A stretch of DNA of 64,000 nucleotides, taken from NCBI GenBank assembly GCA_903813345.2, contig CAIIXF020000011.1, positions 24,854,166-24,918,165 of the forward strand, in the 5' to 3' direction. The position numbers and the translations under genes were made by a program. Position 1 is the first letter of the stretch. Each line of letters begins with the position of its first letter. Source of the stretch: Owenia fusiformis (Eukaryota; Annelida; Polychaeta; Sabellida; Oweniidae). Positions 3,148 through 40,943 of this stretch are shown here, in pieces. The notes beneath the pieces were generated by a model. That model did not search any database. It saw nothing but the letters and a program-made list of their open reading frames with translations, and was not told where the DNA came from.

Positions 3148-6100
3148 ATCAGGAAATTCTGCATAAACTAGATCAGGAAAACATCCTTGTTTACACACCA
3201 TCACGACGAATTGGTGGCAAACGTGTTGTGTGTTATGATGATCGATATATCATTAAACTGGCATCAGAATGTGATGGCATTGTTGTGTCAAATGACAACT
3301 ATAGAGATCTCCAAAACGAAGCCCCAGAATACCGCAAAGTGATTGAGGAGAGACTTTTGATGTATTCATTTGTCAATGTCAACGGAGAATCTAGGTAGGT
3401 CATTCTTACCCCATCTAAAATTCCACTTTTCCACTGATATAATTATGGGATATGGCGACTGGTGCAATCATGTTATGGGAAAATCATGGGGTGTTATGGG
3501 GAAACCAATGGTAATTAAAGTACTAAGAAAGCAAGTCATGTTCCTGGATTAACTTCCCAATAGAATACAACCTCCATTTGAACTTCCTAATAATTTTGAG
3601 AAGTATTTTTAACTATGTTTACTTCCTATTATTGTTGTCCACTTGTTTATTGTAATGTTATTGTAACATAAATAGGGTCATAACGGTTTGGTTTTGATAT
3701 TTATTTCTACTTAAACTTTTCTATGGTTATTTCCTACATTGCATTGATATGGTCATGACAGAAGTCAAGTTGACTTTGTTTTTTGTTTGTATTGTTAGGC
3801 GTAAAGTGGCCTTAATTAAACTTTTGAACTATTGATTTATATTAATCAGAATGACAACTCATGTTGTTAAAGTTGACATAGGGCGTCATGAATCTTTCAA
3901 ATTATCTTTCCATCAATATCAATTGGATTGTAGGAGTATAATAAAGATTAACTGGTGAATATATAGGAATTATAGCTGTGATATCATTCTAAACTGAATT
4001 GAACTCCATGTTGGATGCATAGTCATGTTGATGTCTCATATTGTGAAAAACTGGACCCATTGTGACCCAGTTTACTTCTCTACTTCCGACTTAATTAGGC
4101 AACTATGTAATGAAGTCACGTTTACACTACAGCTGTATTCTCACTGTTCCAAATCTGGACGACTCTAACTGCAGTTAGTATCATTCAAGATGGTGGCCAT
4201 AATTATTTTGTTTTTGATAACCAAAGATTTCAGCTAAAATTAGTTGAATCTGGATTCCAAATGTTTCGCCCTGCAAACAATATCATCATCTGCATCAAGT
4301 TCAATTAGAGTCATTCTAAGTGAGGCTGTTTTCTTTAAATTTATCCAATATCGCTGGTGTTTGAACATTTTCTTGCGACTGTTTTCAATCATAACTTTAT
4401 TGGTTTCCATGACGAAACATTTGGAATCGAGATTCAACTTAGTTTAGCTGAAATCTGAGATATTTCCAAAACAAAAGTATTTTGGCCACCATCTTGAATG
4501 ATACAAACTGTAATTAGAGTCATCCAGCTGTAGAACAGTGATTCTCCTATTTCTTTTTCACTCCTATTCACCTAAAAATGATTTTAAAATCAGTTACCGT
4601 TGGTTTCTATTGAATAAATGTACTTATACTTGTAATAATTTTCTTTGTCTTTGTTTTCCGATTTTCATACTTACTTTTTAACCATCATATTTTAAAATAC
4701 TGACTTCTGAAAATATTAATGTAAACTCAGTTAATTATTCATCCTTATGTTGTTGTGTTATGTTAGACTAATTCAAATGTCAGCAAAATATTTTATTTCG
4801 TTTGAACTTAAAGCCCTTGTTTAAAGGCTCATATACAAGAATCTCATCTGCATGAAGATTTCTCAGGAAAGGGGGAATTATATAGTGTATGTCAAATGAT
4901 ATTTACAATATTGATAATTGACATGGACTTTCAAACTTTATTTATAGTTCATGAGGGTACAAATAACACATACAAACAAACAAACAAACATACTAGTCTG
5001 TTTATTCGGCTAGTATTTTGTAGTCTTTGTATAGACTTATTTCAAAGGGCAACATAGTGAAATCTTGGCCCAAGGGCCGAATCTACATAGTAAGATACAA
5101 GCCTTCTAAACTAGTACTAATACCCTTAGAAGAGGCCTCACAAGGTGGTGATAATACTTTATAATGTAAAATAGGTGCAAATATAAGAAAATAGTTCTGG
5201 TATAGAGTAAAAAAGAAGTCTGATTCTGCTTAGATTGTTTTTGTCATAAACTATGTTGAATCTTTCAGATTTATGCCACCTGATGACCCATTGGGTCGAC
5301 ATGGCCCATGTCTAGATAACTTTCTCCGCAAGACCCCAACTATACCAGAGCAAAGACCACCTAACTGTCCATATGGGAAGAAATGTACGTATGGGAACAA
5401 GTGCAAATACTACCACCCTGAACGTGGGAACCAGCCACATAGGTCAGTCACAGAGCGAATTGCGTCAGAAGCAGCTACGAACATTAAGTTGGCAAAGGAA
5501 CAGAAATCAAGACAAGCAGGTATGTCCCCCTGTGCAACATTCTCAAGAAGTATATTGCTTATGGACAGTCCTCTTAAAGTGAATACATTTTGGCTGTTTC
5601 TACAATTTTCTCTTTGTAACTTTGAAACTCATCTATTCTTGCATGTAAGTTGATGAAAAGTTACATGAATATGAATAATGCTGTGAGTGTTATTATGAAA
5701 CGATATATAGTACTATATTAAGCATATGCCTCTGGCATGTGTGACATTGATAGAATACCTTTTATTAAATGTATTAATCATTCTTATATCCGTTTCAAAT
5801 AGGTGATGTGCCTGAGATCCAGCTACCAGACTCGGAAAGTCCGTCCCTGAAGCAAACAAGCAGGTTCAATAGACTTCAACCAGCTAAGAAAACTGCACTG
5901 ATGCGAACGACATCTGTCATAGAACAGCCAGTGACATCAAATCGCGACCTCGCAGACTCCATGAAAACCATGAGTTTGACTGATTCAGATAGGGAAAGGA
6001 TTATTAAAGAGAAGGCATACAATGAAAAATTGAAAAATATTTCAAAGCAAATTGATGAACAGGACAAATTACCAGATCATTGGAGTAAAGTGTCTGAAAA

Positions 6101-7307
6101 TGCACCTGTCCCCAAGAAACCATTGGCATTAACTAGCGGACATTTGACATTAGCGAAAAAGTTATCAGATGAAGGTCAAAGCAATGAATCATCGGGTAAG
6201 CAGTCGCCTTTGGGATCTGGCCTGACCCCCAGGTCTTCAGGCTCACCCCAAGGTAAGCCCCAGGATGGGCACGCTAAACTTGGACGTCAGTTGTCACTAA
6301 CTGGATCAGAGGACCCAAGACTGAAGAAACGACAACATCACCCACAGTCCAGACCAATGGCCCCTTCACCTGTGTATGACGAGGAGCGCCATCATTCATA
6401 CCCCTTAGATATACACCAGGTTCGCCCCCCTACACAAGTGGTACGTCCAATTGGGAGACAGCTTAGCACAGGGACTAGACCACCGGTATTAGGACATCAT
6501 TTGGGACCCTTTGTCACAAGAGAGATGCTGCCAGAACATGCTCAATTGACACAAATGTCAAGTGATCCGCATGCCTATGGTAAAGCACAACCTCATGCAA
6601 AACAAATAAACCCCCGTATGCTGAGACAGAATAGCACGTCAGACCCACAGATAGCTCAAATGGATGATACTAAAGGCATGATCCCTCACTCCTCTTATGG
6701 TCTACATCAGGGAGTACATTCACAGGCTAGATCATCTTGGCCTTACGCCATGGACAATAAGAACATATACAACCCTCAACCACCCTACACCCAAGGACAG
6801 GGAAATATTGTATATGGAGCAGGGGGGTACAACCAATATACAGGAGACTACCAACAGGCACAGAGCTATATGTCCCACCCAGGGAATCAACCACAAGTTC
6901 ATCAGTTGACCCCTCAACCCCAGTATGGGGGTGTGCACTATCCAGGGGGATTACTACCACAGGAGGGTCATTACTCCCATGTCCACAATATACCGTCTAC
7001 CCAGCAGTCTCATATGTTCCAACACCAACAACAACAGGAACCACATATTTTGATACAGAGTTCAGCCAAAGGACCTATAGGTATAGGTGGAGCTACCAGT
7101 TCAGGTAGTCAAATGACCCAGAGTCAGATGCCAACACTTTCGTATGATGAATCTGATGACATCAAACCAACAGATACTCGCTATAACACTTACTTGCATC
7201 TGTGTGGCATTTTCCAAGAAAAGGATGTTCGTAAGGTTATGAACAAGTATCCACACGAATTAGACGCAAAAAAGATATGTTCGTATCTAATAAGTATGAA
7301 TCCATGA
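3148..7307 (+). CDS. ZC3H12: ZC3H12/Regnase-family CCCH zinc-finger RNase, 3' three exons
   Basis: Exons 3148-3394, 5269-5519 and 5803-7307 (stop TGA) join in consistent phase with GT-AG borders. The first exon carries the second half of the NYN/PIN nuclease fold, with [17 protein letters not shown] followed by the CDG and SND motifs. The aspartates in these motifs correspond to the metal-binding acids of Regnase. The second exon opens with [13 protein letters not shown], a linker typical of the family, and holds one CCCH finger (C-x5-C-x5-C-x3-H, from CPYGKKC). The large last exon is Gln/Pro/Ser-rich and low in complexity. It ends with a conserved ~45-residue C-terminal domain ([14 protein letters not shown] to the stop). 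Family members cleave stem-loops in the 3' UTRs of immune and stress mRNAs in the cytoplasm. The 5' exons, including the first catalytic Asp, lie outside the window. It converges with CDC40 downstream. Confidence 0.93.
4138..4544. mobile_element. Palindromic MITE (~0.4 kb) in ZC3H12 intron
   Basis: The two halves are reverse complements for most of their length. The left half has TATCATTCAAGATGGTGGCC and later ATTCCAAATGTTTCG; the mirror copies occur on the right. Both strands therefore show near-identical short open frames at 4240-4447, which are artefacts of the palindrome and not genes. A diverged half copy of the same family (GTTAGTATCATTCAAAATGG) lies at about 53170-53275. Confidence 0.75.
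4969..4990. repeat. (ACAA)n microsatellite
   Basis: About five copies of CAAA/ACAA in the intron between the nuclease and zinc-finger exons. Confidence 0.8.
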
Positions 7308-13809: not shown

Positions 13810-16800
13810 TCAGTCCCAGTATTTAATAAGTCCATCCCACCCTGCAGATGCCACTTTTGATGTCTCATGGGGATGCCATAATACTGCAATACACACATCA
13901 TCATGTGCCTTAAACTTGGAGTAGAGCTTAGTCGTCTTCCAGTCCCAGACATACACCTTCCCATCAGCATCACCTGAGATCACATAACTGAAAGTAAAGA
14001 GAGTTATTCATTTTACAATGAGTGCTTGATATAACAAGGTCTATACAATTGTTACAGACATTGAGGCTGAATGCCAGCCGCATATAAAGGACACACATCT
14101 TCTATGCTCACGCAGTGAACTGTTACCAAAATGTGTAAAATTAAAATTACCAATTTCTTGAAAGATGACTACAACTTTTTGTCCAATGTCAAAAGCTGTT
14201 ATCCATGGATGGATTTTTAAACATTTTTTATTCCAAGAACAACTTAACAGCATTGTATTGTACTTCTAGCATGCATCATTTTGTGACTAAATGAGACTTT
14301 TGATGTCAAAATCACCATTTTCACAAAAACTAGGAAAACTTGCAATTAGACAAATAGCTTCATGTTATTTATAAACATTAGAAGGATGTGTTCATGGGCT
14401 CATATAAATTGTAAGTTTTCAATTATAAAACCCTCACTGACCAAAGACAAAGAGCACAAAACTCAAATTAAGAATGACTAGAAGGTACCTGTGCCAGTTG
14501 TAGCTTTGCAATATTACACAGCAGAGTAAAATTGCTTCGTCACTATTCGAAGCTTCCTAACAAAGGATTCTGTGCCCTGATGATGTATCACCTTAAAAAT
14601 CATCAATTTCAAAGCTTCTTTGTCAAGATGCTGAGAAAATCTAACCATTGTCAGAACTTACCTCATATCAGGTGCAAAATCTGGAGAACATGCATACCCA
14701 GCCACCATATGTCCCTTGAAGACCTTCTTGCGCATATTCTTCATCCTGTCAAGGGCATTGAAGATCACTATCTTGTTCTCCATGGACTGACATGCCAACC
14801 ATTTACCTGAAACATATCATGTAAAATATCAGTGTCAATTCTTTGAGTTTATCTAACAGTATTGACACTTTGATAGATGGAAATTCAACGTATATATACA
14901 GTAAAAGCATTTTTCATTTTTTGCTCATTTGATATTCTTTTTGTTATACAATTTGATTTCATTTTGATGATATGAGTGAGCAAACAGAGACCAAGTACAT
15001 GTATGCACATTTTAATACATAATTTTTAATTGTAAAATTGAATTGAACAAAATATGTCAAAGTAAAACCTATTTTAGTGATAAATTCTGTGACTGATATA
15101 TCCGTCACACTGTATATAAAAAATCATTTGAAACTCTCCTCTATAATATGCAATATCTTTAAGAATATGGCATAAGAAATACAGGTAGCCTCCTCCTTTT
15201 GAAAGTGATCAGTATGTCACTTACCATTCCTAGAGAGTGTTGTTGAAGGCATCGAGTGCATGCCTGGCTCAGCAATGTATTTGAAATCAACAGGTATGTC
15301 CCTGGAAAAATAATAAGCACATCACATATCAAGAATCTAAAACCAATTAACATTAATACGTAATAAGAATGGTCACATAAAATATAAGGAATTTCAGATA
15401 TTACTTTATAGATGATATTCACAATAATACATACCCACATACATATAAAAAATCAAAAAATCATATTTTCAAACCCAGGTGTTAAACCCATTTTTGCCTT
15501 TAAGATATATGAATGTGTGTTTCCAATTATCTATACCTACAACAAATACAAGGGGTAGTTCTCTCACATAATTCTGTATCACTACTAAGAATTTAGTCAG
15601 TAGTCTTTCAAGGGTTTTTGAGAATTTCATATCCAAAACTGTCATAACATTATTATCATACAGAGTGGTAAAAAATGGAAACCCTTACGCCATTTTCCTC
15701 ATATCTTTCTCATTTTGATTAATAACTCCCTGATATTTTATACATTTGTACATCAAAGTGCTGTTACATTGTGACTATCAGTCTGATGGTCATGAAATAT
15801 GATAGGATGGTAGAAAAGTGAATGATGTACAAATGTGTGAAATATAAGGGAGAAATTTCTAAAAGTGACAAAGATATGAGGAAAATGCAGGGTTTCCATT
15901 TTTTACCACCTTGTACCTGATCCTGCTCTATATGCATGTTGTTTTAAGATATGTATAAAAACATGTGTCTTCATAAACATATCCTTTTAATACATTAACA
16001 CTGACTCAGATGTACATACCATTCCCAAACTCGTAAACTTTTGTCATCTGAAGTGGAGACAAATCGTCTGTTCCCATCTATGAAGTTGATTGAATTGACT
16101 GCTCCCAGATGTCTGTCGTATTCCTGTACTACGTCCCCTGTACGTATGTCCCACTACACAACAAAATAAATGAAATCATTAATATGTAGTATGGTAATGG
16201 AACCACTGTCTCTAAAGTATGGTCATAGAAACGTATCATTTGAGTATGGTAATGGAAACACATCACTGGAGTATGACAATGGAAAAACATCATTGGAATA
16301 TGGTGATGGAAAGATATATTATCAGAGTATGGTAACGGAAGCACATCACTGAAATATGGTATACCTGTCTATGTGAACACCTAATGAATAGAGATATTAA
16401 AATTCTGTACTACAAAATTCTGCAAGCCTAAATGTGGAATTCTGCATTTTATCGTGGATTTTTTTCACAGCATTTTTAAGTCGAAATTGTGTGAAAATCA
16501 AAACTGCCATACGTTCATCTCTAATGTAACAACAGATATATTTGGTAACAATATAGTGATGATATATTGAAAGCATGAATTCCGCAAAAAATCAACAGAA
16601 ATTCAACATGCTTTAAATTTTTACAAAACTAAAAATTCTGCTTTTTTCTGCTGCGGCGTGGAAAAAACGAATTCTAGTATCTCTGATTGATGTACAAATG
16701 TACCTCTGTTTAACAAATAGTTAACACATAGTAAAATACACCTAACTTCCTCATTATCAAGTGTTTCAGCATCAGCAACATTTTTGTGATTTGAAATGCA

Positions 16801-19800
16801 AACACAGAAAATATGAAACAGCGGAAGAGTGTTATGCCTCAATGGAGTAAAACAAGCAACAGGGTTCAATGACTTTACTATGAGAAAATGCAACATTATG
16901 TTCAAATATTTTTATGTAAATAAATATGGGATACACTAAATACTTACACAAACAATCTTTTTGTCTGATGTTCCTGCCACAAACAAATGTTGTTTGTCTT
17001 CATCTGGGTTAAACTTAACACAATATGGCACCTTTTTACTGGTAAATCTTGATATGCATTCACCTGGAAGAAAAAATTGAACAGTTGATGGTGAATACAA
17101 GATGGATATCAATGATCTCACAAGAATTGAAGCAACTGCACCAACTTGAGATATTCAAAACAGTTTGCCTCCACTTGAAAGCCAAATTGCACCCACTTGA
17201 TTTAAGGAAAATCATAAAACATTGGCATAATTTGACCGCATTGAGAAAGACGTGAGAGAGAGAATTTTACAAATACTTGAAAAAAGTATAAACTCTTCAA
17301 AGAAAACACTTCAATAGTTGAAAACTATATTTTGCATTTTCACTTTACCGTCTGACATTCAGAGAGCTATGTACAGTGCATAATAATATAAAGAACTATT
17401 TAGGAGGAATGACGGGAGCTGGTATATTTGAAAATTCAAGGGTTCAAAAGTTAAATTAAACAGACAAAGTTGACTACTCTTGAGAATATATAGATTCAGT
17501 TACCTGTTTCAGTATCCCAAAGTTTACAGAATCTGTCATATGCACAACTGATGAACTGAGTCCCAGGGTTATTAAAGCAGATATCTCTAACAGCCTGCTT
17601 GTGTCCACTGTATGTCCTTACACAACGACGCTCATTATACACCTCCCATATCTAGAAACATGTAATTATACTGTGTGAAATGTTTACAAAAGAACTCAAT
17701 ATCAAATATCATTAAGACATACTTTAAAAGGATGATTATGTTACATTAGTGCTATGTTATGTTATTTCAATGTCTATAAGCTTTTCAAGAAAGAGTGGAA
17801 CATGAGTTGATAAAATCTACATTAAATATTAATTTACAGAATATATTGATGATTCTCCACCTATATTATTTCAAATCCCTTTTTAACTTTGATTTTATGT
17901 ACTAATCGGTGTTCTTCCATTTCATATTAAAATGTTCGATCTTTTTCCACTTCCACAAATTTTTGATTAATTTGATTAATCTCCAAATAACAAATAACTT
18001 ACTTTTATTTTTGAATCCATGCCAGCAGACAGGAGTAGATGTGCAGATTGCGGGAACCATTTTATAGTAGCGATACCCTTACTGTGTCCTGACCAAGTGT
18101 GGATCAGCTTTTTGGGGATAAAACATTTTTCTGGAGGTTCCTCTGATTTGAGATTCACCCCAACGTCCTGAGGTATATGTAGGAACGATCGACCTTGGTA
18201 GTCAAATGCATCTTTGACTGAAATGAAATAATTAAAGGGCGAACTGTACATATTTTATAGCATGAAGTTGCAGTTAGTACACATAATATAACAGAGAAAC
18301 GGCTATAGGCTTTTTTCTAAATATCAAACATTTTTTAAGTTTATAGTTCCATTCAAATATTTACAAACATATGATAACAATGTGACACATTTTACAGATA
18401 TAAATCAATTAGTTTTTTAGGTTTCATTTTGCCAAACAGCCCGTCTGATTCCCTTTAATATAATTAAATAAAATGCATTTGATCAAACATAAAATGATTA
18501 ATAGTCCTACTGTGTAAAGTTGTTTTTTCTTCCATAGGTTTCTCCTCCACTTGTTTTCCTTTCTTGTTTCTCTTTGCCAGAATGACATCCAGATCTTTCT
18601 GATCCTCCTGTAAATAGACATGTAAAATAACCCTTGTGTTATTAATATATTTGCCAGAATGACATCCAGATCTTTCTGATCCTCCTGTAAATAGACATGT
18701 AAAGTGACCCTTGTGTTATTAATATATTTGCCAGAATGACATCCAGATCTTTCTGATCCTCCTGTAAATAGACATGTAAAGTAACCCTTGTGAAATTAAT
18801 ATATTTGCCAGAATGACATCCAGATCTTTCTGATCCTCCTGTAAATACACATGTAAAATAACCCTTGTGTTATTAATATATTTGCCAGAATGACATCCAG
18901 ATCTTTCTGATCCTCCTGTAAATACACATGTAAAATAACCCTTGTGTTATTAATATATTTGCCAGAATGACATCCAGATCTTTCTGATCCTCCTGTAAAT
19001 ACACATGTAAAATAACCCTTGTGTAATTAATATATTTGCCAGAATGACATCCAGATCTTTCTGATCCTCCTGTAAATAGACATGTAAAATAACCCTTGGG
19101 AAATTAATATATTTGCCAGAATGACATCCAGATCTTTCTGATCCTCCTGTAAATAGACATGTAAAATAACCCTTGTGTTATTAATATATTTGCCAGAATG
19201 ACATCCAGATCTTTCTGATCCTCCTGTAAATAGACATGTAAAGTGACCCTTGTGTTATTAATATATTTGCCAGAATGACATCCAGATCTTTCTGATCCTC
19301 CTGTAAATAGACATGTAAAATAACCCTTGTGAAATTAATATATTTGCCAGAATGACATCCAGATCTTTCTGATCCTCCTGTAAATACACATGTAAAATAA
19401 CCCTTGTGTTATTAATATATTTGCCAGAATGACATCCAGATCTTTCTGATCCTCCTGTAAATACACATGTAAAATAACCCTTGTGTTATTAATATATTTG
19501 CCAGAATGACATCCAGATCTTTCTGATCCTCCTGTAAATACACATGTAAAATAACCCTTGTGTAATTAATATATTTGCCAGAATGACATCCAGATCTTTC
19601 TGATCCTCCTGTAAATAGACATGTAAAATAACCCTTGGGAAATTAATATATTTGCCAGAATGACATCCAGATCTTTCTGATCCTCCTGTAAATAGACATG
19701 TAAAATAACCCTTGTGTTATTAATATATTTGCCAGAATGACATCCAGATCTTTCTGATCCTCCTGTAAATAGACATGTAAAGTGACCCTTGTGTTATTAA

Positions 19801-22800
19801 TATATTTGCCAGAATGACATCCAGATCTTTCTGATCCTCCTGTAAATAGACATGTAAAGTAACCCTTGTGAAATTAATATATTTGCCAGAATGACATCCA
19901 GATCTTTCTGATCCTCCTGTAAATAGACATGTAAAATAACCCTTGTGAAATTAATATATTTGCCAGAATGACATCCAGATCTTTCTGATCCTCCTGTAAA
20001 TACACATGTAAAATAACCCTTGTGTTATTAATATATTTGCCAGAATGACATCCAGATCTTTCTGATCCTCCTGTAAATACACATGTAAAATAACCCTTGT
20101 GTTATTAATATATTTGCCAGAATGACATCCAGATCTTTCTGATCCTCCTGTAAATACACATGTAAAATAACCCTTGTGTAATTAATATATTTGCCAGAAT
20201 GACATCCAGATCTTTCTGATCCTCCTGTAAATAGACATGTAAAATAACCCTTGGGAAATTAATATATTTGCCAGAATGACATCCAGATCTTTCTGATCCT
20301 CCTGTAAATAGACATGTAAAATAACCCTTGTGAAATTAATATATTTGCCAGAATAACATCCAGATCTTTCTGATCCTCCTGTAAATAGACATGTAAAATA
20401 AGCCTTGTGTAATTAATATATTTGCCAGAATGACATCCAGATCTTTCTGATCCTCCTGTAAATAGACATGTAAAATAAGCCTTGTGTAATTAATATATTT
20501 GCCAGAATGACATCCAGATCTTTCTGATCCTCCTGTAAATAGACATGTAAAATAACCCTTGGGAAATTAATATATTTGCCAGAATGACATCCAGATCTTT
20601 CTTTGTAAATGACATGTAAAATAACCCTCATAAAATTAATCTATTTACAAGAACAAGTTATAAATTACTTCAAATCAGTTTTCATGATTTAAAAGCAATG
20701 TTAAATTACTTGTTTTTAAGAGAACTTATGTGATAGTGTACAATTATGGTGGGAGGAAAATTCCTGTGGGTCATATAACATGTTCATGTGCTACACACGG
20801 TTCCTTTAACAACTTGTAGGTAACCCTATACCCTCCCTAATAAGATTCAGCTAACATTAATAAACACGATCTCTTGATTAGTTATCAGACAAATGAGCCA
20901 TCTCTAGATGAGTAATCAGAAAAATTAGCCTCCTCTAGATGAGTTATCAGAAAAATGAGCCATCTCTAGATGCGTTATCAGAAAAATGAGCCATCTCTAG
21001 ATGCGTTATCAGAAAAATGAGCCAAGACTTACCTCTGAAGGTTTAATGACTGTTTTCTCATCAACAAACTTGCCCCAAGGTCCCAAATAGCCATCTATGT
21101 CTCCAGCATCAGTGTTTTTTAATCTTTTTCTCTTGTCTCCAGGCCTCACATCTATACTCTCAAACACTGTCTTGCCTGTAAAGTACAGCAAAATGATTAA
21201 AGAAAAAGTTTGGTCAAATCATTTATTACATTAAAAGCTCTTTCAACTCGTGTAGAGGTGAACTGGGCTACATGGTTTTCACACTTTATAATCAGACTAT
21301 CCATCTATGTAAAACCAAAAAGCTGGTCATTGATAACAGCTCTCGATAGAATGTTAAAGCAAAGCTCTTTGCACATAGCATCTCTGTTCAGAATCTTAAA
21401 GTTATAGCTCAGTAAGGTATTTCATGCAGTTTCTGCAATTCTTCAGTGCAGTGCATTTAATGTACAAAGAAGAAAATTGCTCCAAATTAAAGTCATATAA
21501 CCCCTCAGGTTTTAGACTCAAAATATTATTCACACATTAAGATTTTATTTCATGAAAGTCATGGAATATATTCATATACCAAGAAAACAGCCTGAGGGAG
21601 TTGTGTTTTCTTTTGACAAATATCTTAAATCATAACACTTATATCTTTACTTCCTGTCATCCTTCAAAGTCTATCATATTTTGTGATTCATGACATTTCA
21701 TCATTGGACTCTTTGGGTTAATACACATTTTTTAAAGGAAGGGCAACCTACCTTTCCCTTCCTTCTCCTTTTCTACATCTCCAATGACTGTCTCTGGCTC
21801 CCCTGACTCCACGCTGGGGTCTACAGCATAACCTACAAATAAAATAAACTCTACATATAATGTCCAGTCATAGAGCTGCTCTACAATGATCATCTCATGC
21901 TTAAAGGCCCCATATAAAGTTTAAACCACTTTGGCTTATATTGTAGTCTTACCCAATGTTATCAAAGTGTGATATGTGAAACTTTTTTTTTAAATTTCAA
22001 AAAGTGGTTTTTGATAGACTTTTTGTTCCAAAATTTGTGAATTTATTTAAAACCAACTTTAAGAGGTCACTCATATCTTCTAATTAGCCACAATTCATAC
22101 CAATGCATAGCATTCATCCTCCCGTGTTTTTTGCCGAAAAAATTAAGAAAATCAGTTCATAAATAAGCGAGAAATGAACTTATCAGTGCATGAAAATGGT
22201 TCTGAGAAAAATGCATTTCAAAATTTTAGTTCTCATAGAAACCAATGGTACAATGATATCTAAAACATAATTTATTCTTCCTTTTAACCTGGTTAGACAA
22301 TCAACATTGGTTTTTTATGAGAGTCTAACATATTTAGAAAAGATTGACATTGAAAAAAAATTTCAATTTTTTTCAAAAAGTTTTTGGTACCTTAGTGACA
22401 TCACTCATGTTTCAAAATATTTTTGATATGCTAAAACATTGAAGTGGCCCATTAAATATGGCATTTTATTATTGAAATAGTGTGTCCTTTGTTCAACCTT
22501 TGCATTGGTGTTAAAAAGATAATCTTTTTTGAAATGCATTAAGAAATATTTGATGATTAAGAAATTTCAACTTTTTTTGAAAAATGGCGGGAAATTTGAA
22601 TATTTGAGAAATGAAATGCTCACAACTTTTTTTGAAAAAAAACTTTTTTGTTCAAAAATCTCTAAAATCACTTTTTAAGTCCTGACAAATAGTAAATGAA
22701 TGATAAAAAAATATTTTCAAACTTTAGACGGGGACTTTAAAGCATGGACTTTCCAGTCCAGAAAGCTCACTAAAGATTCAAATATCTGTATTCAAATCAC

Positions 22801-25800
22801 AATGTACTCCTTATAATGTGACATACCATAACTTGTGAATGTTCTCCTTTGATTCTCAAACTGGAAAGCATTGAAGTGACTGTCTTCAACAAATCCTGTT
22901 AACATGTTTTTCCTCGCCTTCTGTTGCTCTGTCTTAAAGGGGTTGGTTGGGCCTACCTAAAATCACATAGAAACCTTTAGAGACATAGTTCAATGTGAAT
23001 AGGACAACCACATTGTTGTATGGGGCAACCACATTGTCATATAATGAACGACGGCAATACTTGTTCCTTGTAAAAACCTGATGGAAATCAGAATGCGGTA
23101 TCTTTACTAAAGCTCCTGAAAAATCATATATCTGATAAAAGATGAGATTTCATCCCAATGCTTTCATTATCCAACTAAAACAAAATTCAAAGGCAAAATT
23201 TCAAGAGCAAAATTCTGGATATTTACATAATTTATCTTTGGCATTAAAATAAAAAAAGCAAAAAACAATTATGATTCGGGATGGAGAAAAAACATTCAGG
23301 GGATCAGTGTTCAAAGTTCAGGAATGGTGAAGTGAGAATTGATTGTAATTCGAGGCTCAGTGTTCAAAATTCAGGTGAGAAGAATTTTGAGAATAATACA
23401 TACCTCAGGTGCATAGAGCTGGTCAAAGGTTGGGTTGTATGCAAGCTCCTTTGTTGTAGAGTCTATATGGTTCACAAGATTTACATCATCCTATAAACAC
23501 ATAAGAATTATTAACTCAAATGACGTGCAACTAGATGATCTTGTATTACTTGAGTCTCTAGCCAAATTACTTGGCTAGACATCATGGCATGTGGAACACT
23601 GTAAAGTTTTCCTTTAGAAAAATATTTAATCTAAATAATATTCTAAAAAAATCATTGTAAGAATAGTCCATGAATTGAAACAATGTATTTTGTGTGATAT
23701 TGCATGATTTCCACTAAAATTAGAGCAACAGCTCTGAGGAAAATGGTGGAAAATGTTGTTAATGTCTGACATTATAACTGGCTGTAAATTCAAAGTAAGC
23801 AATCCAAAGGATTTAAAATTATATATTGATCACTTCTTGTATGTTTTGATTTTGTGAGGTAATAAGACCAAAACTTCAAATATTCAAAAACTTCAAAAAT
23901 TCAAATTGTGATGTGAAAAAATGGGGGCTGGTTTGATTTCAAATTTTGTGATCACGACATGACTCATGATATACAGCAGGATAAAACCTACAGGGATTTA
24001 GGTTAGCCTAAGACTGCAACACAGTGGAAGCCCTAGACAAATGTAAATCTTGTAGACATGCGGACTGTGGTCTAATCTTACAATTTATTGTAATCTGAAA
24101 GAGAAAATCAACTTTCAAAGAATTTTGAAATTCATAGGGATGTAGGCCAACTACATTACATACATGTATGAGTGAAAATGTGGTAGTAATGCATGTTGAA
24201 TTACCCAGATGCGAGTAGGTAGTAGTAGGAACTCCAGGAAATTCTGATATTTCACACTTTCTCATTCTCAAAATTCATTTCGTTCTTTGCGTACCTTCAC
24301 TACCTCTCTGATGTTGTTAAAATGGTTCTAAAATTCCCGGGGTAGTAACTGAGAAAGCTTCAGAAATTAGTACTTTCTTTATTACGAAATCAACAACGCC
24401 AAAACTTTGATATTCCATAAATCATAACGTTTACAAATTATTTTACCATCGAAATTGGTAATCAATGTTGTATTTGATGTGTTTTAGGTAAAAATCTCCA
24501 AGGAGCAACAAATTGTAAAATGTCAAGATCGATAATCAACATTACTACACAATTTCAAGATGGCGGTGTCAAAATTTTCTAAAATGCATCAAATAATATT
24601 ATGTTAATTTCTGGCGAATTCACCAATATCATAACTTGTTATCTAACAACAAGATAAAGAAATAAGTAAGAAATTCAATTTTATCCATTAAAACATCACA
24701 TCGACATGTGGTATTCGTTTATTAGAAAAATTAAGAATATGGGGATGACGTCATTTCAAAAAGAACTGCATAGCAACGGTGTTAATAAACAATTTCTGAT
24801 CGGAAGTCCTTGCAAATTCCTAAGTATTCACTATTTTTAACAGTTTGTTACGAATTACTTTTCGGATATTATTTTTCTTATGAATGGATTCTTACTACAT
24901 AGAAATAAACATTTTATAAAATATAACGAATAAAATCAGTCGCAAACACAAGAAATAGATTTTTTTGAAGGAGGTCAAAATATTAAGAAGGGTAAATTTC
25001 GCGGGAATTTAAAGATCTGCATGAGGTAAGGCACATAAATGTCTCACTTTATTACAGTAATTATATGTAATCGTTGCAGATAAGGCGAAATTGCATTTCC
25101 GACAGGTCTTCTTGACATTTTCGCTGACCTAATTTCAAGTGCGCATGCATGGCATTAATCGAGTGAGATGATCATGTGACGTAATTTGATGATCACGTGA
25201 CGTAATCTTTTGCCATTACTAGTTGGTAAACTGCTATAGTGGATTCTTGATTCAATATGTTTGTTATCACGTCTTGTAACTGTTCTGGCTTCAAATCAAA
25301 TCCAAACTTTGGTTTTATGTTATTCGAATAAAGATCATTGATTTCTTCTGTTGAATACATGATGGTCGAATCAACGATATAAACTCTGTATAGTTAAATA
25401 GATGGCAGCAATATTCAATGGCTATTCTCGTCAAATCTCGTGAGAATAGAAGCCGCAATAAAGATTTTGAGAACAGTTGCGACAAACGGCAATTTTGCTA
25501 CAAAATTAGCACAATTCAACCTTCTACAACCACAAAAGTATGGTAAGTTTTTGTATAAATCATCAATGTATCCATTTTGTTTATATTTCTCTATAAATGA
25601 CGCAGAGATTCTAAGCAGAAGATTAAAATAAAGTGAACCATCAAAAATAATCAAGAAAAACTTAGATTGGCATGAATTTACAAGGATAAACACTGCCTCT
25701 AATGCGACAATACAACAATCCAATGTATTAGAGTCGGTGTTCACCATCTACTTGAGACATTGTTATCGAGGTACTGATTCTACTACATACGATCATGCCA

Positions 25801-26137
25801 GCATCTATGTTTTGTAGACCTACTCCTAGACTAAAGACACAAGAAGCTGTATCACTAAAGGACCAAAAAGGACTTGATACAACTAACTGTGACTCAAGAG
25901 AAGAAATATTATTGAGAATAGATCTAAATTTAAAAATTGAATATTTTTTTGAAAAAAAAAATAAAAAATTACCTTTGTGGCAACCACAGGGGCGATACAG
26001 AGGGCTTGTGAAGGATTTGATGGGACCAAATTGTCCTTCCGCCCAATAGGTTTCAAATGTGCCGTAAAATCTTCCTTCTGTTGCCCTGTATCATCGTCAG
26101 AATCACTTGAATCGACGTAATTTTGTAGTGCTTCCAT
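13810..26137 (-). CDS. CDC40: CDC40 / PRP17 pre-mRNA splicing factor, 13 exons, complete
   Basis: Exons in coding order: 26137-25973, 23490-23404, 22956-22827, 21832-21752, 21175-21033, 18607-18511, 18217-18003, 17651-17504, 17063-16948, 16153-16020, 15301-15225, 14806-14662, 13987-13810. All have GT-AG borders and compatible phases and give 571 aa, close to the ~579 aa of vertebrate CDC40. The N-terminus is acidic (VDSSDSDDD), followed by the conserved blocks [22 protein letters not shown] and [16 protein letters not shown]. From about residue 272 WD40 repeats form the C-terminal propeller, starting at WSGHSKG (residues 276-282) and ending [12 protein letters not shown]. The protein acts in the nuclear spliceosome at the second splicing step. 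The start lies 52 bp from the start of the divergent oxygenase copy 1. Oddity: intron 5 contains ~27 tandem copies of the exon-6 acceptor. Confidence 0.96.
15661..15913. mobile_element. 253-bp TA-flanked MITE in CDC40 intron
   Basis: The left end CAGAGTGGTAAAAAATGGAA and right end (reverse complement CAAGGTGGTAAAAAATGGAA) are inverted repeats flanked by TA on both sides. The arms extend over most of the element (ATTAATAACTCCCTGATA on the left; AATATAAGGGAGAAATT on the right). It is the internally deleted relative of the transposase-bearing element at 59758-60722, which shares the arms and the GGTGGTAAAAA ends. Confidence 0.8.
16185..16362. repeat. Degenerate ~31-bp tandem repeat in CDC40 intron
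   Basis: About six imperfect copies of a unit close to GAGTATGGTAATGGAAAC plus an ATCACT-rich tail. It lies in the intron just upstream (in the - sense) of the exon ending at 16020. Confidence 0.7.
18576..20648 (-). repeat. 77-bp minisatellite carrying 3' splice acceptor plus exon-6 start of CDC40
   Basis: The period is 77 bp. Units begin at 18576, 18653, 18730 and so on to 20578: 26 full units and one damaged unit. In the CDC40 sense each full unit reads a branch-like TATTAATAAC, then TCTATTTACAG, then 32 nt of exon 6 starting GAGGATCAGAAAGATCTGG. The unit nearest the rest of the exon (18576-18652) holds the true acceptor at 18608/18607. Single-base variants recur in the same order every seven units (539 bp). 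The last unit (20578 onward) has lost the acceptor core. Confidence 0.97.
20879..21023. repeat. 31-bp tandem repeat next to CDC40 exon 5 donor
   Basis: About five copies of a unit like AGATGAGTTATCAGAAAAAT plus GAGCCATCTCT. The array stops a few bases from the donor of the exon 21175-21033, so it fills the start of the same intron that carries the 77-bp minisatellite. Confidence 0.85.
21905..22736. mobile_element. 832-bp TTAA-flanked TIR element in CDC40 intron
   Basis: It is flanked by TTAA at 21901-21904 and 22737-22740. The left end is AGGCCCCATATAAAGTTT and the right end, reverse complemented, AGTCCCCGTCTAAAGTTTG. The interior is rich in A/T homopolymers and holds no reading frame. TTAA duplications point to the piggyBac or Kolobok type; the superfamily is not decided. 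Confidence 0.65.
23491..25972 (-). other. CDC40 intron 1
   Basis: A 2.5-kb first intron without recognisable coding sequence. The only notable feature is a pair of ATF/E-box-like motifs at about 25168-25208, listed separately. Confidence 0.7.
25168..25208. promoter_or_regulatory. Twin TGACGTAAT / E-box motif in CDC40 intron 1
   Basis: GATGATCATGTGACGTAAT is followed immediately by TTGATGATCACGTGACGTAAT, so an E-box-like CACGTG/CATGTG overlapping a bZIP-type TGACGTAA is repeated with a ~21-bp period. The site lies about 1 kb inside CDC40 from its start codon. A regulatory role is inferred from the motif only. Confidence 0.4.
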
Positions 26138-26189: not shown

Positions 26190-29100
26190 ATGGCGGATGA
26201 TACATTTGGAATTCCTATTATTGATTTCGGTATTTATGGCCTTCAAAACGATGAAAGTGGACCTTTGAATGATGGTCAAATGCACGATTTAACTTCAGCT
26301 GTATATAGAGCATGTACCGAGGTGGGATTCTTGTACCTAAAAAATCATGGTATTGATTTACAACAGGTAAAGTGTTTACTTCCGGGTATATGACCATCGA
26401 GAGCTACATGTATATCTCATAACGGCCAGTATCCAAGCTTAGTGCAACACTCCACAGTGCTCGGGAGAGACTTATCTAGCTTAGTGTTACAATATGAGTA
26501 TGGGCTGTTCCATGGCTGTTCAAAGAAATTTTGTGATAAACAATGAAAACAAATGAAAGTAGTCTGTGCCAAACCGTGTTGCCCTTGCTTTACTCTCTCC
26601 AGTGCAGAAAGAGGGAACGGTGCCTTATTTGCGCTAAACCCGCATCGCTACTCGTTATGCGGAATATTGTTTTACTTTGCATTTGTATATTACTGGCCCT
26701 AGCGATGTCAGTCTGAATAGCAAGCCGAATTAGGTTACATTGGATCTGGATGTGAATTCAATTGCGGTTCAATTGTGTGTATGTACATGTATGGTGGGAC
26801 TTTTGGAACCTGGGCAGTAGCCATTACAGATTACATTTGTAAGTTTAATATTTATGATAAATGTATATATATATTGTTTATTTTGTATGTTGCACTAGGT
26901 AGAAAAAGTGCGAAGTGTATCGAAAGCATTCTTCCTACTCCCAGAGGAAACTAAGAAACGTTACGCTCGAGTAGACGGCAATAACTTTGGTTATATTGCC
27001 AAAGAAGTTGAAAGGTAAATTGCTTCCAATTCATAATGAAACGATTTACAATATGTTCTCCCTGTCTTCGTATGAGTATTGTCGTATAGCCCCAGGAGAC
27101 TCCCAGGGGAATAGCCTCAGCCCTGAACAACTATATCTATTGTATCTTATTTCAGACTTAATCCGGAAAGAGAGGCTGGTGATCTGAAGGAAGCATTCAA
27201 TATATCTCCCAACATTGCTAAGGTGAATGACTAACGTCATATGATTCAATAGTATTTATTCGTAATGTTGGTTATTAGTACTGTATATTGGTTTTGCATT
27301 AGCTTAATTAAGATGAATGAAATGATAGTCTCGGAATGGGGGTTAATTACGGCCAGGAGATCGATTTGTCCCCCCTTTGTCAGATGTGGCGGAGCATGGT
27401 ATTTTTCATAAAAACACTAAGAAAACTTCACAATTTATTTTTTAAGTTATATGTTTCGTTATACCAAAGAAAATGACTTACTCCATGCAATGGATATACA
27501 ATGTATTAGTTGCGGGTTTGAAGTCCAATAACATGAATAACGCGAGGAGTAAAAGCTATTGAATACGGCGTCAGAGTGTCATACTCTAAAATTTACCCGA
27601 TTTCTTTTTTCATTTTTAATGGCACGATATAGTGACACGAAAATATTCACACATGTTTTCAGCACAACTCTGAAGGTATTAATGAGATATGGATATGTTG
27701 GATGGAGTAAGTAATTTTCTTTGATATAACAAAACATACATACACTCCCCTCAATAAGTTTGGCAACCCTTGCTCCCCCATTGAACTACGTGTTAAAGCC
27801 TCTTTACCTTTGAATTTTTGCCAAACTTATGGAGGGGAGTGTATGTATGAGTTGTGAAATAAATTGTGAAGTTTTCTTAGTGTTTTTATGAAAAATACCA
27901 TGCTCCGTCAAAGCGGACAAATCTGTCGATCCCTGTCCGTGTTAAGCCCGGTATACAACAATGGGGCAAGTTGGGACCTCCATAGACTTAATTAACATTG
28001 CGTGGGACCTCGTGGTACCTTTTGGGATTTTGCCCCATGAAGTCCGTGGGACTCCATGGGACTCCGTGGGATTTTGCCCCATCGAGTCCCACGAGGTCCC
28101 GTGAGGTCCCATGAAGTCCCACGTGGGACTCGGTTGGACTCGATGGGGCAAAATCCCACGGAGTCCCATGGAGTCCCACCGAGAATGACCATGTTCATTC
28201 TTTCCATGGGGCATCGTGGGATTTTCGATCATATGACGTGTTGTGTGAAGCCCGACATACACCAATGGGACACGGTGGGATTTGATGGGACTCCATGGGG
28301 CTTGATGGGACTCCATGGGTCACGATGGGGCAAAGTCATCAAGGTCCCATGGGACTTCGTGGGATTCGATGGGGCAAATTGGGATTCGATGGAGCAAGAT
28401 GGGACTCGATGGGGCAAGTGGGATTTTGCCCCATTGGTGTATACCGGGCTTTATTCATTACTAAGAAAGTATTATACAACTACTTATCACATACAACTAG
28501 ATGTTTAGCTGAATGTACCATTTTACTTTAAATGTTAGGTTTGAATAACAAAACTGCTTGAAAAAATTGAAACAATTTACAGTGTATACAGGACTTAAGA
28601 GACATGATATTACTTTCATAATGCATCTATGCGATGCCCTGTGTCCTGTTTTTAAGAAATGGCCCGAAGAAGAGATCCCTGGATTCAAAGATGAGGCAAT
28701 GACGTTATTCAACCAGTGCAACAAGTTATCAATGAGGATATTGGAAGTTATGGCCATTGGATTAAAATTGGTAAGGCGTGTTTTATATGTCTCTGGTAAA
28801 ATAGCTCGTCATAAATGTTGCTTTTTCTGTCGGACTAGTTCATATACATATGGTTAGCACGGTTATTTAACTTAAATTTGATTAATCGAAATTTAAACTT
28901 TCATTTGTAAGTAAAATGAGTTAACGTTGAACTGAAATTTCTTAGTTACCCTGCGCTCATGGTTTACTTATAAGCTTCTGAAGACGAAGCTTTCTTTTTT
29001 TGAAGTGAAGTAGAACGAATGCGAAAGGTTTCTCTTAGTAAACTCAATTTTTCTGGACATTCTCTTTGTGAACGGAATTTGGATATTGGTGTTAAGTAAA

Positions 29101-30122
29101 TTATGGTCCCCTTCCATATACCAAATGCCATAACTCTGATTTAGTATGAATTATCAAGAGTCTGGCAATTGAGAGGGACCAGCACTGGCTAGCACAGCAG
29201 AGATTTTTCCGTTGTTCTATTTAATCTAATGACTTCTAGTGTGAAATATCTGTACATTAGGATCGAGATGCATTCACAAAATACCACACTCCAAATAACA
29301 TATGTGGCACTACGATGAGATCTCTTTACTACAATCCTCTCCCAGAGGACTTCATCCCCAAAGCGGACCAGGTGAGATGCGGAGAGCACTCGGACTATGG
29401 CTCAATTACGTTGCTGTTCCAGGACGACGTCGGAGGACTCGAGGTAGATATTTATATGTGATTCATCCTGTAATATTACTGCATTGTAAACATGAATCCT
29501 ATAAATTGGAAATAACATTGACTTGTATTATCAAATTTTGTTAAATTTTTGGACTTTTTAATAAAAACGTTTAGAAAACGTTGTCATCATGATACACAGT
29601 ATGAATCGATACACCACTCTTGTTCTTTGAACTATACATATTTCGTCAAATATCATGAATGGAATGTCGCAATTAACGGTGTCGTTGATTATTCAGGTTG
29701 TAGATCGTTCTGGGCAATATATGGCAGCGACACCTATCGACGGTACAATAGTTGTAAACATAGGAGATCTCATGCAGCGTTGGACTTCTGATACTTTTAT
29801 CTCAACTGTAAGTTTTTTCAAATAAAAACAAATATAATTTTTTAGGTATTGTCGGCCTTATCCTTATGGGTATAAACAAACTCATTCTTCTTTTAACTTT
29901 CAGAAACATCGAGTGCTAATACCCAAAGAAGAGCTTCACAAAAAGGAAAAGATGGCGCGTCAATCAATAGCTTTTTTCGTGCACCCCGATGATGACGCCA
30001 TGATCACGTGTATAGATGGCTCTGAGAAGTATGAACCAATCACCGCAGGAGATTATTTACAAATGCGATTCAGAGATAGCTATGGTGATAAAAATAAACA
30101 ATCAAGGGAAACGTGGAAATAA
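26190..30122 (+). CDS. 2OG-Fe(II) oxygenase (isopenicillin-N-synthase-like), copy 1
   Basis: Exons 26190-26366, 26899-27014, 27156-27222, 28657-28770, 29261-29443, 29697-29807 and 29904-30122 (stop) give 328 aa with consistent phases. The N-terminal DIOX_N-type domain starts MADDTFGIPIIDFGIYG and contains GFLYLKNHGI. The catalytic jelly roll has GEHSDYGSITLLFQDD, with iron ligands His201 and Asp203, a distal ligand His258 in KHRV, and Arg275-x-Ser277 (RQS) for 2-oxoglutarate. All expected catalytic residues are present. Family members use 2OG, O2 and Fe(II) to oxidise small molecules; the substrate cannot be told from sequence. It is head-to-head with CDC40 and is the most diverged of the three copies: exon 3 is two codons shorter than in copies 2 and 3. 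Confidence 0.93.
27345..27943. mobile_element. ~600-bp long-TIR element in oxygenase copy 1 intron 3
   Basis: The arms share TGGTATTTTTCATAAAAACA and AAGAAAACTTCACAATTTAT in inverted orientation (27400-27490 and 27700-27905), plus GAGATCGATTTGTCC against GGACAAATCTGTCGATC near the ends. A small second element sits inside the right arm (27743-27841). The exact termini are uncertain. It is absent from the same intron of copies 2 and 3. Confidence 0.7.
27743..27841. mobile_element. 99-bp Tc1/mariner-type MITE
   Basis: It begins CACTCCCCTCAATAAGTTTG and ends with the near-perfect reverse complement AAACTTATGGAGGGGAGTG. TA flanks both sides. It is nested in the right arm of the element at 27345-27943, which is therefore older. 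Confidence 0.8.
27945..28450. mobile_element. 506-bp palindromic element built of GGGACTCCATGG-like units
   Basis: The ends are AGCCCGGTATACAACAATGG and, reverse complemented, AGCCCGGTATACACCAATGG, flanked by TTA on each side. The interior is packed with ~10-11-bp motifs (GGGACTCCATG, GATGGGGCAAA) and their reverse complements, so several hairpins can form. A third, internal copy of the terminus (AGCCCGACATACACCAATGG) at about 28249 suggests a dimer. Apparent proteins rich in W, P, S and H across it are translation artefacts. A TTA duplication would fit PIF/Harbinger. Confidence 0.75.
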
Positions 30123-33100
30123 AACAAACGTTTGTATGTTGACAGTTATTACACGAGCAATATTTTCAGGCATGTACAGTACAGTACTTTCCTAGATAAT
30201 ATGATCAGTAAAATCAATTGCAGATCATAATCATTTTTTGAAGTTCCTTTTACGTAACCAAAGTATATGTTATACTTGATATACGTTTGTGATAAAAATG
30301 TCTACAACACGTGAAAAGGGAAAAAACTAAAAATCGTACCTTCGAAGTTCCAACATTTTGTTACCGTTACCAGCGTAATCGAGTGGATCACCAGTGAACC
30401 TGAAATTCCTGGAACAAATGAATGGGACAACATGGAAGCAAATGCAAATTCATACAATTTAAAGAAATTGAGAAAAATAGACCCTTAGGGTGCAATGTCT
30501 GAACAGCGGAAAATTTCCCCAAACAAAAGTACTCAAATAGCATCCGGCAGATTTGAATTCAGCACATCTCAACTATACTGAAAAGTTACAAAAACTGCAA
30601 GATTCCAAAATTGCCATAAGTTAAAATAGTGCAGGACTAAATCTTCATGTTTTGATAAGGTATACTCAAAGACTTGAAACGTTAATTTTTTTTCTTTGTT
30701 TACCAAAACGTTGTTGTCTTCCACACTGGTGTCCCCCCGCCCTTGGGTCGGCCCAGAAAAATTGGCCCCAAAAACAATTAGTGGGCCTTTTTGTCAAATA
30801 ATAAATGATAAATTCTGGTACATGGTACTTCAATTACAAATTCCGAGTCTAACAAATGTTAATATAGTTTCTCTCCCTGGATCGTATCAATTATGCCGGC
30901 TTGATACCTGTGTCCAGGTATGTGATATGATTCAGCTCAACGAAACCCACCCTGAAGTTCACAATGCTTCTCCTCTATGTCGATAGACGGTCAAGCCAAG
31001 TAACTTAGTCAACATTCGATATTCGTATGTTCATCAATATTGACTAAGAATGGTGCCACAATTGAAGTAAACCTCTGTTTAATTATTTTCAATAAACCTA
31101 TCAGCAAACGTGTAAATGACAAATTTGATGTTCTGTTACATATTGGTGAAGCAATCTTGGGGATATGGCCTAAATTTCTGAATTTCCACTATGTCACTGT
31201 ATACCCCTACTTCAAAAGATGTATGTTATTGGTCATTTTTCATTATGAATCAACCATTATGTATTTTTTCTTGTTTACATACAGAATGAACTTTCTGTTT
31301 TCAAATATTGAAAGATGGTACTGCATCTATTTTTTCATGATATAGAGCAAACAAATGCGTGTCAATTTACACTGTAATATCCCACATACTTATATTTTAA
31401 AAGTAGTTTTGAGGAATAATCAAGAAAATCCATGTTTTCAAATGAATTCATCCTTGTCAAAGAACGTAAATGAGGATGTGCGGTTTGAAAAACTAACAAC
31501 ATGTTTTAAGTTCTTACAACTCTTGGTTAAAACAAATATTTCGAAAGTTGTGATTTCGAATGTAATATCCAACTCAATGAAATTTGTTGATATTTGTGAA
31601 TTTTTTCTTTCGGAATGCACATTGCTGGATCACAGAACATTGCCTCTTTCGAGATGCACGAAAAGTGTATTGCTAATACTTGACGTCGTTCGGATATTTG
31701 GATGTGATTGACGTTTTTGTTAATCTCCAACCACTGTAACTTCCAACTTAATTTTTGAAAGCCAAATATGATAGTCACGAATTGATATTTAAGTCACACG
31801 TTGATGCATACATCATGTGTCTACATTAACTGTCAAATGCATGCCGACTTACATTTATATAAATATCCACAGTTAACTCAAATCATCAATTCTCGAAACG
31901 GTTTATCAAATAACCTGGTGAGTTTAATGTTTCATTTTAATTCATAATTATGTTATCGGATTTGAGTATGATATTAGTCGAGGCTTAAACAAAGCAATAA
32001 AATTGCGTGAAACCTTTTGTGAAAATTTGAACAATTTTTCAAGAATTCTCCTTCAAAGTGTTACCACAGTGCTCCCCGGGAGTAGAAATTTCGTCTTGTG
32101 TAATCAAAATAATAGCGGGTGGTTTGAATTTTTGTTTGAGTTTATAGCCCAGCATCTATAAATTTAAAAACGTGTCGCCTCATTGAGAGGTACATGCAGA
32201 TTTTGGCGATCTATCATTCTAAAAGGCTAAATTTTGTGCAAAAACAGGAGTTGACACGCTTACATTTGGAATTGAAATTTCCTACATAATTGTCGACTAT
32301 TTGTTTAAAAGTCATGAAAACAAGGTTGAACACAAAACAATGACCTAATTACTGTCTATATAGCATGGGATCACTTAGGGAAATATTATTCATGACTTAA
32401 ATCGTTAACAGTTAAGTTGTATCCCAAGAAACTTATCAATTTAGAAATGCAAATTGTTTTTCAATTATAAAAATGGCACCTGTAGAGAACAACGTTTACA
32501 AAATTATTTTAAACGGAGATATTTACTTATGTAACATTCGTTAGCATGTGTCAGCGAGTAAACAAGAAGAATATGCATATGATTCTATATCTTGTTCCCA
32601 AAGGAGTTTGTTAAGGAGCGGTATATCTTAACGTACTTTTATCATCCCGAACTCAAATATTTCGAATACTTATTTCGAGAACGCTTTGTTGAGAATGGAT
32701 TCGAGATGTACTCAAAATTAATACGTTAAAATGTGTATTATCGTCTTAATAACCACCTCACAAAATATTTTGGAAATCAAAGATGTACGATTTTTGAGAT
32801 TTTTATTTTCGAATGTTGACTTACTTACTTGGCTTCACTGTAGAGTCGGATAGACCAAGCCCATGAACAAATTAATGGTGTGATCAAAAGTGAGGGAGGA
32901 GTTTTGGGGTTATTTGACAATCCGATGGCATTATAGAAATGAATGGTTGATGGTCCAGAGTTGGCAAGAATGTTAACTAAGTTTGAGGATGAGATGAAGG
33001 ATAATGATGGCGAAGTCCCTGCAAACCATGTCAGTAAAGAGACGACAACTTTGATGAATTTTTCCAACATAATTCGGCTCCATCGCTTTCACAAGATGGC

Positions 33101-34036
33101 GTAATCAAGGCTGGACTCAAAGCAGATTCTTAAAACCAATAGAAGACCGTATTCCAAATGGAGAGATCACTGTACCAGATGTTGATTGAATCCATGTTTC
33201 TTGATGGTGCAGTAATAGTCCACCTGCTGAAAACATAAGAAGCAGCAAGAACCTTTCCACAGTACTCGAATGACATAATAAGTACATTGGAGATCAACTA
33301 ATTAATAGAGTACGAGGATTTGATATTAGGGATCGATATGAATATATACCAAATAGTCTCAAATGTTCAACTAGAGAAAAACGGGGATTTTGAAAACCTC
33401 ATTGAAAGGTACATGCAGTTTTTAGCAATATTTCATGATAAAAGGCAAAATATTGTGAAAAACACTGGTTGACACGCTGACATTTGGAGACTCATGTTTA
33501 AAAGAAAACGAGATTGAACATAAAACATTGACCCGGCCAGTCACTAATTTATCATGAAATCACTAAGGAAAACATTATTAATGACTTAAATCGTTAACAT
33601 TATGTTGTATTCCAAGAAATTTTTAAATGCAAAATGTTTTTTGTTTAATTATAAAAATGGCACATGTAAATAACTGTGATATAAAATTAAATTATGTAAG
33701 TCGTTGTGAAAATTAAATCACAATGTGTTTATGCAATCAAATAGGCTTATGAATAGTAAGGCAAATTAACAGAGGTAAAAACAGATACAAAGTGCACATA
33801 AGTCAGTTGAGAAAAATTACGCTGAGAGTAAACAGGCAATCATATGCAGAGATGAGATGAGTTTGGAAGAAATGAGATAACTAGATATGAGATAATTAGA
33901 AATGAGAAACAATAACAACGTTTACAAAATTGTTTATGACAGATATATTTATTTATGTTACATTCGTTGGCACGTGTCAGCGAGTAAATAAGAAGAATAT
34001 GCTTTTGATTCTATTTCATGTTCTTAAAGGAATTTG
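30123..34036. repeat. Duplicated intergenic block after oxygenase copy 1
   Basis: Segments of this block recur after copy 2. Sequence near 30123-30990 matches 47459-48400, and 32840-34036 matches 48410-49625. In addition 32200-32640 resembles 33400-34036, so the block is itself partly duplicated. About 31000-32200 has no second copy and no recognisable gene. The arrangement indicates repeated unequal exchange in the oxygenase cluster. Confidence 0.75.
32836..33120 (+). pseudogene. Transposon-like ORF remnant (IDQAHEQ motif), copy 1
   Basis: The frame reads IDQAHEQINGVIKSEGGV, then LGLFDNPMAL, two stops, then MVDGPELARMLTKFEDEM. From memory, a DQAHEQ...GGxVGL...MVxGPExAR pattern recurs in uncharacterised, probably transposon-encoded proteins of invertebrates and fish. 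In-frame stops show decay. A sister copy lies at 48405-48676. Confidence 0.5.
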
Positions 34037-34039
34037 TTA

Positions 34040-34140
34040 AAGTGTGCGCCAAAGTTTAAAACTGCGCAGGCGCACCGCTCTCGCTAAACTATATAAAGAG
34101 ATTGCCCGGTACACGATTCAGAGGTAAGCCGTGATGATTT
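34040..34140 (+). promoter_or_regulatory. TATA promoter with GC-rich upstream and a donor-like end
   Basis: CTGCGCAGGCGCACCGCTCTC is followed by TATATAAAGAG and, about 30 bp later, by CGATTCAGAGGTAAGC, which contains a strong splice-donor consensus. This looks like a core promoter plus a short non-coding first exon. It begins exactly where similarity to the block at 48410-49625 stops. No downstream exon can be paired with it. Confidence 0.4.
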
Positions 34141-34459: not shown

Positions 34460-34633
34460 CTAATCCCCTATACTCGGGGTGGAAGGTGTGAGAATTGTGC
34501 AAAAAATGACTTTGTGAGCTGGATGGAGTTTCTCTGTATTTTTCATTCTATTAGGGCTTTCTGCATAAGGGATTTCGCCTGCGAAGCATATTACTCTTGC
34601 GAACATATCTAAATATTGGTCCGAAGAAGACAT
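34460..34633 (-). pseudogene. Mirror copy of the ORF at 40647, truncated
   Basis: On the - strand this reads MSSSDQYLDMFARVICFAG and EIPYAESPNRMKNTEKLHPA, then diverges and stops after 57 codons. It is the left-arm counterpart of the + strand frame at 40647-40943, and the frame is kept without a stop over the shared part. The family is not recognised. Confidence 0.45.
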
Positions 34634-40646: not shown

Positions 40647-40943
40647 ATGTCTTCTTCCGACCAGTATTTAGATATGTTCGCAAGAGTTATATGCTTCGCA
40701 GGCGAAATCCCTTATGCAGGACACCCTAATAGAATAAAAAATACACAGAAATTCCATCCAGCTCAAAAAGTCATTTTTTCCTTAACGGAGCCTCTTAGAA
40801 AATTTTCCACCCCGAGTACTAATGTAAACACGGCGGTATACGTAGCCCGATTTATCGGGGACTTTAACTTTTATCACCCCGAACTCAAACATTTCGATTA
40901 CTTATTTCGCGAACTCTTTGGTAAGAATGGATTCGAGATGTAA
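40647..40943 (+). CDS. Unrecognised 98-aa ORF at the foldback right edge
   Basis: The frame starts MSSSDQYLDMFARVICFAG inside the right arm and runs past the arm's edge into unique sequence. It ends with FYHPELKHFDYLFRELFG and NGFEM. Its first ~45 codons occur again, in frame, in the left arm (34633-34460). Its last ~25 codons recur at 32635 (in frame) and at 49626 (broken by a 4-nt insertion). Reuse of the frame suggests former coding function. I do not recognise the family, and it may be one exon of a transposon gene. Confidence 0.35.
   Translation: MSSSDQYLDMFARVICFAGEIPYAGHPNRIKNTQKFHPAQKVIFSLTEPLRKFSTPSTNVNTAVYVARFIGDFNFYHPELKHFDYLFRELFGKNGFEM

Follow-up and report, generated by a model that had tools for sequence, protein, structure and literature searches.

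The 64,000-nucleotide stretch analysed here (the window; contig CAIIXF020000011.1, positions 24,854,166 to 24,918,165) carries on its minus strand, at 13810..26137, the gene for the splicing factor CDC40/PRP17, and within this gene lies a mirage minisatellite, a tandem array of 77 bp units across the boundary between intron 5 and exon 6. The gene was modelled as 13 coding exons and 571 codons from its GT/AG borders and a protein match, and its minus-strand translation, with exon ends placed on those borders, contains no internal stop. The best solved relative of the 571-residue product is PRP17 of PDB entry 5mqf (880 bits, E = 5.5e-264, residues 35-571), in agreement with the gene named in the original prediction, which had been made from the sequence alone. 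Exon 5 (21033..21175, minus strand) ends in the donor GAG/gtaagt and is followed by the 2425 nt intron 5 (18608..21032), which would measure about 420 nt were the array cut down to one unit. Exon 6 (18511..18607) has 97 nt, of which the final 62 are purine-rich (0.77), and a donor reading ACA/gtagga. The acceptor at 18608/18607 had been named as the one giving a correct mRNA, and protein homology supports this, as the alignment to PRP17 of 5mqf is gapless over the exon 5/6 join (VAKPSEEEQKELDEITAKRQKKGKQEEEKP). The guanine-cytosine (GC) content is 34.5%, probably lower than that of amphioxus, and Rfam at the gathering threshold returned 0 matches.

The array is real and is built from a splice acceptor, as had been proposed. 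Tandem Repeats Finder (TRF) gave a period of 77 over 18573-20602 (26.4 copies, 97% matches), and 26 units with an intact TTTACAG/GAGGATC acceptor follow one another at a spacing of exactly 77 nt, with first exon bases at 18607, 18684 and so on up to 20532. Each unit joins 42 nt of the end of intron 5 to 35 nt of the start of exon 6, rather than the 32 nt of exon originally given, and TTTACAG is present in 26/26 units, as stated. The units comprise one authentic unit (18573..18649, acceptor 18608/18607), joined to the remainder of exon 6, and 25 decoys (18650..20574, acceptors before 18684 + 77k up to 20532), a count that replaces the earlier figure of about 26 decoys. Upstream of these in the gene, a 27th, diverged unit of 69 nt forms the 5′ edge of the array (20575..20643), its acceptor AG lost, in the alignment, in a 7 nt gap. 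The 100 nt beyond it gave no further eroded unit (score 16, a value reached by 60% of 500 shuffles), and at the thresholds used neither the 77 bp unit nor CDC40 exons recur in the window outside the array and the gene. The claim of a branch-point-like sequence in each unit holds for TATTAAT (26/26), whilst TATTAATAAC is found in only 12/26, the authentic unit among them; counted on the sequence, every unit has a branch-point-like sequence 31-34 nt upstream of its own AG. Pairwise identity among the 26 units averages 96.8% (minimum 93.5%), which excludes a chance origin of the repeats, and only eight columns vary, seven of the 42 in the intron part and one of the 35 in the exon part. Two other minisatellites were detected in CDC40, neither spanning a splice site: one of 31 bp x 5 at 20869-21024 lies 9 nt from the donor of exon 5, the other, of 27 bp x 6.3 at 16188-16361, lies 35 nt from the acceptor of exon 10. 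In a post hoc test, both came to lie 35 nt or less from a boundary in 1.9% of random placements.

The units fall into nine distinct types which, read in gene direction, are arranged ABCD-AEFFDGHI-AEFFDHI-AEFFGHI, with a block of eight units and then two of seven that lack G or D. Identical unit pairs number 9/19 at lag 7 and 6/18 at lag 8, with three or fewer at lags 1-6. The array was probably enlarged partly by 7-unit (539 bp) blocks, and the co-occurrence of eight- and seven-unit blocks suggests block duplication plus loss of single units, a pattern that fits earlier length changes in the one sequence examined. In the intron, before unit 27, CTTGTAAA resembles CTGGCAAA, which lies in the exon at the repeat junction, and a first short duplication may have been seeded between these imperfect matches. 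Later expansion would be due to unequal exchange or to slippage, some of it seven units at a time.

Mirages, minisatellites spanning exon-intron boundaries, were described in the amphioxus genes Adh3 and, among the globins, BflGb6 and BflGb9, where they are unstable in length and have diverged edge units (PMC3087553). The CDC40 array is a long, clean example of this already described kind and not a new type of object: its repeats span the boundary and carry splice signals, and its inner units are homogenised with the edge unit excluded. As in BflGb6, the 3′ end of an intron is repeated together with the 5′ part of an exon, and, as in the amphioxus mirages, acceptors are retained in many repeats and a diverged edge unit flanks homogeneous inner ones. 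The unit of 77 bp compares with 150-160 bp in BflGb6 and 10-72 bp in Adh3, and the 26 intact units with 6 and 3 in two BflGb6 haplotypes. The CDC40 array differs from the amphioxus mirages in its 7-unit block structure and in its host gene, and whereas length instability has been shown in amphioxus, the CDC40 array is known from one sequence. In the open-licence literature searched, the amphioxus mirages were the match as an acceptor-side precedent, though others may exist; DDX3Y was considered and is not such a case. Donor-side variable number tandem repeats (VNTRs) of the ABCA7 and IFI6 type were likewise rejected as a description of the CDC40 array, as its repeat carries an acceptor and its internal donors are weak. 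Turri reportedly described in 1995 a minisatellite of IFI6 (IFI-6-16) that has several splice donors. The IFI6 units carry splice sites, as the CDC40 units do, but on the donor side, and two downstream repeat units serve as donors (PMC4526556). The VNTR in ABCA7 intron 18 resembles the CDC40 array in that it includes a splice site and in that use of cryptic units leads to a frameshift and premature stop, but it is a human, donor-side array of a 25 bp unit, with about 12 to 427 units and a measured effect on splicing (PMC5954066).

Reading through in silico from a decoy acceptor led to a premature stop in 25/25 cases, in line with the original prediction. The further claim, that the stop comes within two units, was correct for 24/25 decoys (120 nt past the acceptor) but fails for the nearest, 18684, from which 237 nt are read before a stop in exon 7. 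These 25/25 stops represent a potential for unproductive splicing, which is distinct from actual use. Skipping of exon 6 leads to a stop at codon 223, and retention of intron 5 to one at codon 210. Two donor-like sites inside the unit, GAT/GTCATT and CTG/GCAAAT, would define micro-exons of 21 and 30 nt that hold the frame through to the end of the gene; these donors score 1.4 and, only when GC is scored as GT, 5.3.

Local acceptor sequence cannot decide which unit is used, as two decoys share the authentic sequence without a difference for 35 nt downstream and, upstream, for 173 nt (decoy 19146) and 240 nt (decoy 19685). What sets the authentic site apart from these two can lie only in the remainder of exon 6, in the donor or in position. 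From +36 to +97 the purine fraction is 0.77 at the authentic site and 0.52-0.58 at the 25 decoys, and hexamers made of G and A only number 18 and 4, respectively. Splicing enhancers are commonly purine-rich exon sequences. We therefore consider it likely that the array is a tolerated mirage, with the body of the exon selecting the last acceptor, and that it is probably neutral or slightly harmful and no regulator. The last acceptor would be used, at least often enough for a functional CDC40 gene, since no other copy continues into the complete, purine-rich body of the exon with a donor downstream, and the intact CDC40 reading frame counts for tolerance. An array of whatever length would leave with the intron once the last acceptor is used, which would allow it to persist, and some use of the nearest decoys, feeding nonsense-mediated decay, would be expected. 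In engineered beta-globin transcripts, where identical 3′ splice sites likewise compete and the upstream copies have a truncated exon, splicing was inefficient and exclusively at the downstream site, albeit with two sites and in vitro (PMC5389562, which cites Reed and Maniatis 1986). By analogy, last-site use is predicted for CDC40, whose exon copies are 35 nt.

Several observations weigh against a tolerated array read in this way. Use of the authentic acceptor is itself deduced from protein homology, and the decoys are no weaker than it: on a matrix derived from the gene's 11 remaining acceptors its score is 9.3, against 9.0-12.1 for the 25 decoys, so weakened decoy acceptors were rejected as an explanation. 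The matrix is rough (leave-one-out scores of the 11 acceptors ranged from -1.4 to 13.3, with 3/11 at or above 9.3), and 25/3048 minus-strand AG sites outside the array region score as high, training sites possibly among them. The exon 6 donor, ACA/gtagga, is the weakest of the 12 in CDC40 (0.5, the next being 1.2) and thus a poor anchor for exon definition. RNA accessibility was also rejected as a discriminator, since its prediction does not favour the authentic AG, which at 0.021 lies below 19/25 decoys (range 0.009-0.070). In the beta-globin experiments the downstream site was used alike for upstream exons of 14, 55 or 205 nt (PMC5389562), which is not specific evidence for the exon body and therefore supports the outcome more than its proposed cause. 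Finally, a boundary-spanning duplication in the potato RdRp gene, in which the 3′ side of an intron was duplicated together with the 5′ side of an exon, as here, ended with both acceptors in use and a new intron formed; that case differs in being a single duplication whose new intron, with its activated donor, is visible in RNA-Seq (PMC4974935).

A first alternative holds that the decoys send a sizeable share of transcripts to nonsense-mediated decay, a share that rises as units are added, so that array length sets CDC40 output without any feedback. The decoys match the authentic site in strength, the donor of exon 6 is weak, all 25 premature stops have at least five exon junctions downstream in the gene model, and ABCA7 splicing is affected by the length of its donor-spanning VNTR (PMC5954066); yet the far units would require exons of up to 2022 nt, which are unlikely to be favoured, and Adh3 data and reverse-transcription PCR suggest that regular splicing is not disturbed by the amphioxus mirages (PMC3087553). 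We regard this as unlikely, and as slightly less likely still that the array works as an inherited, rapidly changing dial on a core splicing factor, in which more acceptor blocks route more CDC40 transcripts into decay. If it did, animals and, with unstable repeats, even cells differing in unit number would differ in CDC40 dose and hence in the general accuracy of second-step splicing. Autoregulation through mis-splicing, the idea put forward in the original prediction, would have the level of CDC40 protein shift acceptor choice in its own transcript, with decoy products destroyed, and it draws on the premature stops that decoy use would give and on the role of CDC40/Prp17 in the second splicing step (PMC11651659). 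Since every unit has its own branch-point-like site, however, the choice of a unit would be settled with that of its branch point, ahead of the first step, and a second-step factor is therefore a poor fit for regulation by unit choice. The exon part, with one of the eight variable columns, bears no significant sign of constraint (P = 0.06, a test limited by the non-independence of columns that results from block copying), and a literature search combining CDC40, autoregulation and nonsense-mediated decay gave nothing on the topic, as judged by titles and the opening of abstracts. Autoregulation is consequently highly improbable and was not upheld.

The in-frame micro-exons raise the further idea of intron gain or micro-exons under way, with an upstream acceptor and an in-unit donor adding 7 or 10 residues, for which potato RdRp, with its activated cryptic donor, offers a precedent (PMC4974935). 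Both internal donors are weak, however, and if a unit were spliced directly to its neighbour the introns would measure just 47-56 nt and the branch point would sit very close to the donor, although longer skips are possible, and we hold this to be the most improbable of the readings. It is very unlikely, though less remote than autoregulation, that the array is an assembly artefact, either absent in reality or with a unit count that is far off. The blocks are near-identical, further recent duplications are present in the window, and for one amphioxus mirage the draft genome contained an aberrant assembly (PMC3087553). Against this, nine ordered unit types and an eroded edge unit are hard to obtain by simple error, although the block count may still be incorrect.

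Other features of the window include an imperfect 20 bp repeat cluster upstream of CDC40 (28265-28425) and, on the plus strand at 5778-7304, an open-reading frame matching Pfam Regnase_1_C (E = 3.7e-08), the end of a Regnase/ZC3H12-like gene. Large direct duplications occupy 40864-47661 and 49624-56868, and the listed pieces show mostly 92-96% identity; related sequence lies at 29237-30301 and 33398-34040, and no CDC40 exons and no 77 bp unit were found in any of these. Arrays of a 367 bp unit lie in opposite orientation at 34501-35953 and 39021-40779 and are about 78-85% alike. A 33 bp minisatellite occurs twice (43222-43506 and 44138-44422), 916 bp apart and within surrounding sequence of 624 nt that is 99.5% identical, and represents either a very recent duplication or an assembly error.

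The interest of the CDC40 array is as a natural competition experiment rather than in any demonstrated regulatory role. Choice of the spliceosome among equal 3′ splice sites has been studied with two-site constructs, and here a natural gene presents 26 of them. The two decoys that match the authentic site would allow the contribution of local sequence to be separated from those of the exon body, the donor and the order of transcription. If the host lies outside the cephalochordates, the group in which they were reported (PMC3087553), mirages would reach beyond that group.
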